From the NCBI RefSeq assembly GCF_001005825.1, contig NZ_LBHV01000001.1, positions 620,001 to 684,000 on the forward strand: 64,000 nt of DNA. The letters are read 5' to 3'. The DNA comes from Rhizobium sp. LC145. Lineage in GTDB: Bacteria; Pseudomonadota; Alphaproteobacteria; Rhizobiales; Rhizobiaceae. Below the pieces are notes generated by a model that worked only from the letters and a program-made list of their open reading frames with translations, was not told the DNA's origin and did no database searches. This document shows, piece by piece, positions 2,659 through 3,549 of the stretch (position 1 is the first letter of the stretch; every line of letters begins with the position of its first letter). The translations under genes were made by a program, and so were the position numbers.

Positions 2659-3048
2659 TCAGACGCGACGCTTCTTGCGCGGACGGCAACCGTTGTGCGG
2701 GATCGGGGTCACGTCGCGGATCGAGGTGATCATGAAGCCCGCGGCCTGGAGAGCGCGAAGCGCCGATTCACGGCCGGAGCCCGGACCGCAAACCTCGACT
2801 TCAAGCGACTTCATGCCATGCTCCTGAGCCTTCTTGGCGCAGTCTTCGGCAGCGATCTGAGCAGCGAACGGGGTCGACTTGCGCGAACCCTTGAAGCCCT
2901 TGGCACCAGCGGACGACCAGGCAATCGCATTGCCCTGCGCGTCGGTGATGGTGATCATCGTGTTGTTGAAGGTCGAATTGACGTGGGCAACGCCCGACGT
3001 GATATTCTTGCGTTCGCGGCGGCGAACGCGGGTGGCTTCCTTGGCCAT
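2659..3048 (-). CDS. rpsK: 30S ribosomal protein S11
   Basis: S11 of the small-subunit platform, 129 aa, standard length. Family signatures are [20 protein letters not shown] in the N-terminal half and the C-terminal [18 protein letters not shown]11 contacts 16S rRNA around the mRNA exit and E-site. It follows rpsM, but the spacer is unusually repeat-bearing (3106-3174). An A-rich stretch with AAAGGGATA lies just upstream of the ATG as ribosome site. Confidence 0.99.
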
Positions 3049-3105
3049 ATTATCCCTTTCGTTGATCTCTGCACCGCCGTAATTCCAGCGGCTCCACCTT
3101 GGAAA

Positions 3106-3174
3106 AGCGAATAGCGAATAGTTGGTAGCGAATAGAACAAAAACCTATTCGCTATTGGCTAATTCCTATTCGCT
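3106..3174. repeat. AGCGAATAG direct/inverted repeat cluster between rpsM and rpsK
   Basis: Three copies of GCGAATAG on one strand (ending near 3114, 3121 and 3135) are followed by two inverted copies (3145-3154 and 3166-3174). The central pair forms a perfect 10-bp stem, TAGCGAATAG (3126-3135) with CTATTCGCTA (3145-3154), and the outer pair can form a second layer. The unit resembles short intergenic repeats that I recall being common in rhizobial chromosomes. It fills most of the 132-bp rpsM-rpsK spacer and would fold into a long hairpin in the transcript. Confidence 0.75.
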
Positions 3175-3180
3175 CCCAAA

Positions 3181-3549
3181 TTACTTCTTCTTACCAGCGA
3201 TCGCCTTTGCCGGGCCCTTGCGGGTGCGGGCATTGGTGTGCGTGCGCTGACCGCGAACCGGAAGGCCACGGCGATGACGCAGGCCGCGGTAGCAGCCGAG
3301 GTCCATCAGGCGCTTGATGTTCATCGCGGTCTCGCGACGAAGATCGCCTTCGACCTGATAGTCGCGGTCGATGGTTTCACGGATCTGAAGGACTTCGGAA
3401 TCCGTCAACTGATGGACGCGCTTGTCGGCCGGCAAGCCAACCTTGTCCATGATTTCCTGCGCAAATTTCGAGCCGATCCCGTGAATGTAGGTCAGCGCGA
3501 TAACAACGCGCTTCGCAGTCGGGATATTGACGCCAGCGATACGTGCCAC
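3181..3549 (-). CDS. rpsM: 30S ribosomal protein S13
   Basis: S13 of the small-subunit head, 122 aa. It forms the inter-subunit bridge to L5. I chose the GTG start at 3549 because it gives the canonical N-terminus [20 protein letters not shown] and has AAGGAG about seven bases upstream. The open frame continues further upstream, but that part is not S13. The C-terminus [21 protein letters not shown]-type tail is typical. It is preceded by a 234-bp spacer with a candidate promoter, so it may start a partly separate alpha operon rpsM-rpsK-rpoA-rplQ. Confidence 0.98.

Follow-up and report, generated by a model that had tools for sequence, protein, structure and literature searches.

A palindrome stands between the ribosomal protein genes rpsM and rpsK in the 64,000-nt stretch of DNA that we analyzed (the window), which raises the question of what kind of element it is and how it came to lie inside an essential operon. 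The first-pass annotation had described five copies of AGCGAATAG, in both orientations, forming a hairpin in the 132-bp spacer (3049-3180), and this description was borne out. The five exact copies at 3106-3174 are ordered as three forward (3106, 3113, and 3127) and then two reverse (3145 and 3166); the window holds no further copy, against an expectation of 0.30, and none of 100 shuffles reached five or more. They belong to two inverted arrays of the 7-nt unit TAGNNRN, which start just 3′ of the rpsM stop codon and form two 30-nt arms with 77% complementarity and a separation of 9 nt (Table 1). Both genes are on the minus strand, the downstream one being presumably rpsK, and the arm that comes first in the mRNA begins 6 nt past the rpsM stop codon.

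Table 1. Positions of the palindrome and its neighbors in the window
Feature	Coordinates	Strand	Remarks
rpsM (S13)	3181..3549	-	upstream gene
Stretch from rpsM stop codon to conserved rpsK leader	3099..3180	-	82 nt
Right arm	3145..3174	-	two exact AGCGAATAG copies and degenerate heptads; first arm in mRNA
Loop	3136..3144		9 nt, without an ORF
Left arm	3106..3135	+	three AGCGAATAG copies, heptad TAGNNRN; second hairpin arm in mRNA
rpsK (S11)	2659..3048	-	downstream gene, from sequence; name presumed

The stretch between the rpsM stop codon and the rpsK leader folded with -33.7 kcal/mol on the mRNA strand, compared with -39.5 kcal/mol on the other strand. The mRNA-strand fold of the full spacer reached -47.6 kcal/mol (z -4.6; 1 of 200 shuffles was equally good), a value that takes in a second, separate hairpin adjoining rpsK. 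An intrinsic terminator would have a GC-rich stem with a T run after it; here, the stem lacks GC richness and only TTTT comes after it. An Rfam search of the spacer returned no family above the gathering score.

Spread and placement of the heptad arrays

The possibility that the word occurs nowhere else in the genome was refuted by counting it: the 5.88-Mb genome contains 104 matches to AGCGAATAG, compared with 28 for the reversed word. Most of these are single, and true clusters exist at about ten places. The repeat unit proposed in the first-pass annotation thus stood as a dispersed word, but AGCGAATAG is merely one dialect of a TAG-phased heptad; AGCGAAT, AGTGAGT, AGCGAGT, and GGCAGTA were all seen in clusters. 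The AGYGART pattern was present in 71 of 297 family genomes, compared with 1 for the reversed control (table read by hand). In the 57 genus genomes, four TAG steps at period 7 gave 404 matches versus 32 for the control (hand sums), and the same pattern at period 8 gave 8 versus 14; the repeat of the genus has a period of 7, not 8. The generic TAG pattern matched at least once in 23 of 57 genus genomes, exactly as many as its reversed control (hand count), and in 54 of 397 genomes of the order, compared with about 50 for the control (by eye). Therefore, the excess of the generic pattern resides in copy number. At the class level, 29 of 385 genomes gave a match, in many cases with different heptads, a raw count from which we draw no conclusion. 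The description of the units as a dispersed rhizobial intergenic repeat held, as they were found in other families and varied between close species. Spacers of a heptad-like kind between rpsM and rpsK were also seen in other genera, among them Mesorhizobium, Chelativorans, and Chelatococcus. The genus itself is Neorhizobium-like, and two of its rpsM-rpsK spacers are identical to those of named Neorhizobium records. Our literature search found no paper on the exact repeat words; the 23S rRNA intervening-sequence protein (IVP) was searched less widely, and an earlier description of IVP with heptads is possible.

For the placement analysis, a gene caller trained on the ribosomal genes of the window was applied to loci mostly picked by the heptad pattern. 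In the first 95 loci, all 41 two-armed clusters ran forward-then-reverse. A larger set, after removal of 38 duplicate and 22 weak clusters, left 115 clusters, whose counts are not independent because many lie at homologous sites, nuoC-nuoD foremost. Among its 44 two-armed clusters, 43 ran forward-then-reverse only, one held both orders, and none had the opposite order alone. Among 69 single-armed clusters, those with exactly one stop codon within 60 nt were sense in 29 cases and antisense in 8. Stop-facing sides lay within 15 nt of a stop codon in 67 of 135 cases and start-facing sides in 2 of 76, and the array itself provided the stop codon in 16 cases. Convergent gaps held 33 of the 102 classed clusters versus 6 of 81 in the background, and divergent gaps held 5 of 102 versus 18 of 81; of the remaining clusters, 9 were at locus edges and 4 within called genes. 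An intrinsic-terminator-like stem was present inside several loops. In many rhizobia, elements of this kind seem to have settled immediately 3′ of the stop codons that end ordinary genes.

A long form that encloses an IVP gene

The arms at nuoC-nuoD flank roughly 400 bp, which include an ORF that matched 23S_rRNA_IVP (PF05635, E 4.7e-38) and also the four helix bundle family TIGR02436; its match to bAvd was weaker and below the cut-off of the bAvd family. By the length of the inner part, most of the 62 two-armed elements fall into two size classes, 46 with 9-98 bp and 13 with 389-434 bp, and all 13 elements of the latter class encode IVP/S23p. The outlying sizes were 1432 bp with IVP, and 155 and 563 bp without it. 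At all 15 IVP loci, IVP runs in the direction of the gene upstream, and in 13 of them the first strict heptad starts 8-35 nt past the stop codon of that gene; at the remaining two, the 5′ arm fails the strict pattern. A nuoC-like C-terminus precedes 12 of the 15 loci, and one more precedes a nuoD-like start. The nuoC-nuoD loci with IVP are L097, L100, L103, L237-L266, L345, and L350, and this recurrent setting may reflect old inheritance or a hot spot. The genome of the window has such an element at nuoC-nuoD; its heptads read GGCAGTA, and its 25-nt arms are 96% complementary. Solved relatives of IVP are 2gsc (XCC0516) and 2rld. The S23p of Xanthomonas is reported to be a homopentamer of four-helix bundles, and S23p/IVP proteins are stated to have no known function (PMC4990558). 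Phages were rejected as IVP carriers: none of 50,697 phage records matched IVP, and viral contigs gave one pattern match and no relative.

The arrangement resembles the intervening sequence (IVS) of Coxiella 23S rRNA, which is reported to end in inverted repeats of 28 bp, to contain an S23p ORF and a variable number of tandem heptamers, and to be excised by RNase III (PMC4990558). The likeness extends to stem-forming terminal inverted repeats, tandem heptamers that vary in number, and a PF05635 protein in the long form in the transcribed sense orientation; the elements described here differ in lying in protein operons 3′ of stop codons, and the copy in the window differs in having no ORF. In this copy, the terminal inverted repeats pair into a stem, and the ends carry tandem heptamers; its 9-nt loop contains no IVP/S23p ORF, and it is located between rpsM and rpsK, not in 23S rRNA. 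Therefore, we did not file it as a full IVS, although it may work like one. ORF-less IVSs also exist in 23S rRNA.

We consider the palindrome of the window to be probably the ORF-less short form of an IVS-type element, inserted or exchanged just 3′ of the rpsM stop codon. One kind of element, with heptad ends and an optional IVP, would be the simplest account of both size classes. The ends of such an element would be the inverted tandem heptads; it would be transcribed with the operon, and its hairpin would fold out of the mRNA. Short and long forms would descend from one element, and IVP might help the short forms in trans. RNase III may cleave the hairpin, as in 23S IVSs, and the rpsM-rpsK mRNA may have recruited the structure as its intercistronic hairpin. 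Neither transposition, target duplication, nor an RNase III cut was seen; the earlier suggestion that the repeat can spread is thus retained on the grounds of its distribution, from which we infer mobility. The short elements speak against the IVS-type reading in that they hold no recognizable IVP remnant; their loops have no similarity to it, and we rejected the idea that these loops are decayed IVP genes.

The association was also approached from the opposite side, with loci chosen by IVP alone. A search of plasmid records with IVP only gave 35 records, and a second query gave 27; we took 28 plasmid IVP loci, of which 25 are cyanobacterial and some are near-identical (L395/L396 and L401/L402). 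A flank with a best period of 7, 8, or 9 at a score of at least 0.60 was present in 25 of 28 loci (23 by script at period 7 or 8, and two at period 9 read by hand). Tandem repeats were missing at the other three (L404, L415, and L421), which counts against the IVS-type reading. At period 7, the IVP flanks had a median score of 0.55, compared with 0.38 for the remaining windows of their loci. However, the 99th percentile of those windows was passed by only 12 of the 56 flanks, which also counts against the IVS-type reading, as does the cyanobacterial origin of 25 of the 28 loci, since such repeats are common there. Inverted flank complementarity exceeded 50 shuffles at 19 of 28 loci. Matching of flanks across loci indicated that unrelated IVP loci can have common repeat types (cross maximum 25), and the inverted complementarity is therefore partly their product. 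At one of the 28 loci (L411, from Azospirillum), IVP lies inside the LSU (23S) rRNA, between heptads. On cyanobacterial plasmids, IVP genes also occur within CRISPR operons (L400, L405, L410, and L421), placed in the cas6/cas4 interval, in the Cas10/Cmr2-Cmr3 interval, or 3′ of cas2; the last of these (L421) is without tandem repeats.

Tying IVP to tandem inverted repeats in both rRNA and mRNA operons gives it a likely partner sequence. Moreover, scattered rhizobial repeats become probable short forms of IVP elements, and mobility and RNA cleavage become testable in laboratory strains. A more speculative version, to which we give a small chance, is that IVP, together with a borrowed reverse transcriptase, retro-inserts heptad-ended RNAs behind stop codons, with slippage producing the dialects and the short forms served in trans. 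It takes IVP as a relative of bAvd, the partner of a diversity-generating reverse transcriptase, on the strength of the weak match mentioned above. If this were true, rhizobial and cyanobacterial dispersed heptads and 23S IVSs would form one RNA-level mobile class.

The placement past stop codons and in convergent gaps also fits published descriptions of stem-loops and REPs. The arrays might accordingly be REP/BIME-like 3′-end repeats without an IVP history, tolerated as palindromes that may stabilize mRNA, attenuate transcription, or stall ribosomes. Indeed, they share with REP/BIME/REPIN sequences a dispersed extragenic distribution of inverted repeats, frequent proximity to stop codons, and an mRNA hairpin. 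However, they are heptad arrays and not a fixed palindrome, and the 389-434-bp class always comes with IVP, which makes this account unlikely. Two of the 57 genus genomes contain the Y1/RAYT-type transposase domain PF01797; none was found in the genome of the window, for which a RAYT-driven REP was rejected. Br-REP1 and Br-REP2 of Bradyrhizobium are likewise alphaproteobacterial palindromes in 3′-UTRs, but have a fixed palindrome consensus, and heptads are absent from the consensus given. The heptanucleotide families of Geobacter metallireducens are also tandem and of many copies; they differ in their units (GGACCGG and MTYCTGA), occur within genes as well, and were read by their authors as regulatory.

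Constraint and turnover at homologous sites

Hairpins were present in every one of the 56 rpsM-rpsK spacers read among the 57 of the genus (L332 was left out), 14 of them terminator-like and 42 long, many of the latter with heptads of other dialects. A repeat hairpin inside this essential operon, which had been called unusual, is less odd in this light. The spacer differs between sister species, as the comparison proposed in the first-pass annotation brought out. In a tree from 696 columns of flanking coding DNA, in which most deeper forks are weak, the genome of the window and its sister (support 100/99) have different heptad dialects at rpsM-rpsK, and a second sister pair (support 100/98) has a terminator in one member and heptads in the other. 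The rpsM-rpsK hairpin thus turns over between sister species.

Since perfect palindromes are strand-neutral and mismatches tell the strands apart, we scored single mismatches. Pairs common to both strands were counted, with G-U forbidden, and single mismatches were classed on the mRNA strand (Table 2).

Table 2. Single mismatches in hairpins and palindromes, classed on the mRNA strand
Set	G·U	A·C	Other
42 long rpsM-rpsK hairpins of the genus	50	5	19
14 terminator-type spacers of the genus	19	0	1
17 convergent heptad palindromes	13	13	11
17 other co-directional heptad palindromes	5	10	18
13 rpsM-rpsK heptad hairpins from other genera	3	9	12

The 50 G·U versus 5 A·C mismatches indicate that the genus keeps its rpsM-rpsK hairpin at the RNA level, with a p value that is overstated because the 42 hairpins are related by descent. 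A strand-biased mutation rate is still a conceivable cause of the excess, against which the co-directional controls speak. At other sites, heptad palindromes resemble ordinary inverted repeats of DNA. These results bear on a further alternative, in which the hairpin is a regulatory RNA structure of local function: the spacer would require it, and heptads would be just one of the sequences able to form it. The hairpins in all spacers read, the G·U excess, and the exchange of terminator-type and heptad-type spacers between sister species favor it. However, the same heptads recur with one polarity at unrelated loci, and the copy in the window carries no RNA-level mark: it has neither G·U nor A·C mismatches, and the antisense strand gives the more stable fold. 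The rpsM-rpsK hairpins of other genera are also without such a mark. We therefore regard a purely local hairpin as improbable. Under the IVS-type reading, the element, or an exchanged spacer with it, would take the place of an intercistronic hairpin, and in other members of the genus it would then be retained as RNA.

Turnover was also evident at comM-cysK, where 27 of the 30 genus loci fetched were readable. Clear arrays of differing dialects were present in ten of the 27, four had merely 15-19 bp between the stop codons, and the remainder contained degenerate repeats, palindromes of another type, or additional genes. The genome of the window and G311 share a related loop with different heptad numbers there, and the arms of one site are often of the same dialect; both facts suit growth in place, with heptads arising by slippage and the inverted arm by hairpin-templated copying, but this process alone explains neither the stop placement and single polarity nor the 400-bp IVP class, and we consider it very unlikely. 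In the genome of the window (L364), comM ends with the C-terminus GGFEKRIVIGE at the TAG of the array, which thus gave comM a new C-terminus; most genus members stop soon after MAGERL. In several species (L375, L376, L378-L381, and L384), a palindrome GTCATCCTCGGG...CCCGAGGATGACGAC, which we take to be RIME-like, replaces the heptads.

Directly before rpsK lies a conserved hairpin leader (3049-3100, minus strand) that is common to Hyphomicrobiales and gave no Rfam match. It was compared with E. coli 16S rRNA, as the 35-contig assembly of the window's genome yielded no 16S match. For 10 of the 22 sequences compared, the top local match fell at positions 681-731, but the likeness exceeded every one of 100 shuffles in L111 and L140 only, and the best match of the window lies elsewhere. 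In 25 leader sequences, all 125 cells of the 5-bp stem pair, and 19 cells are changed on both sides, compared with a shuffled mean of 6.9 and none of 500 shuffles as high, which makes this a candidate uS11 leader.
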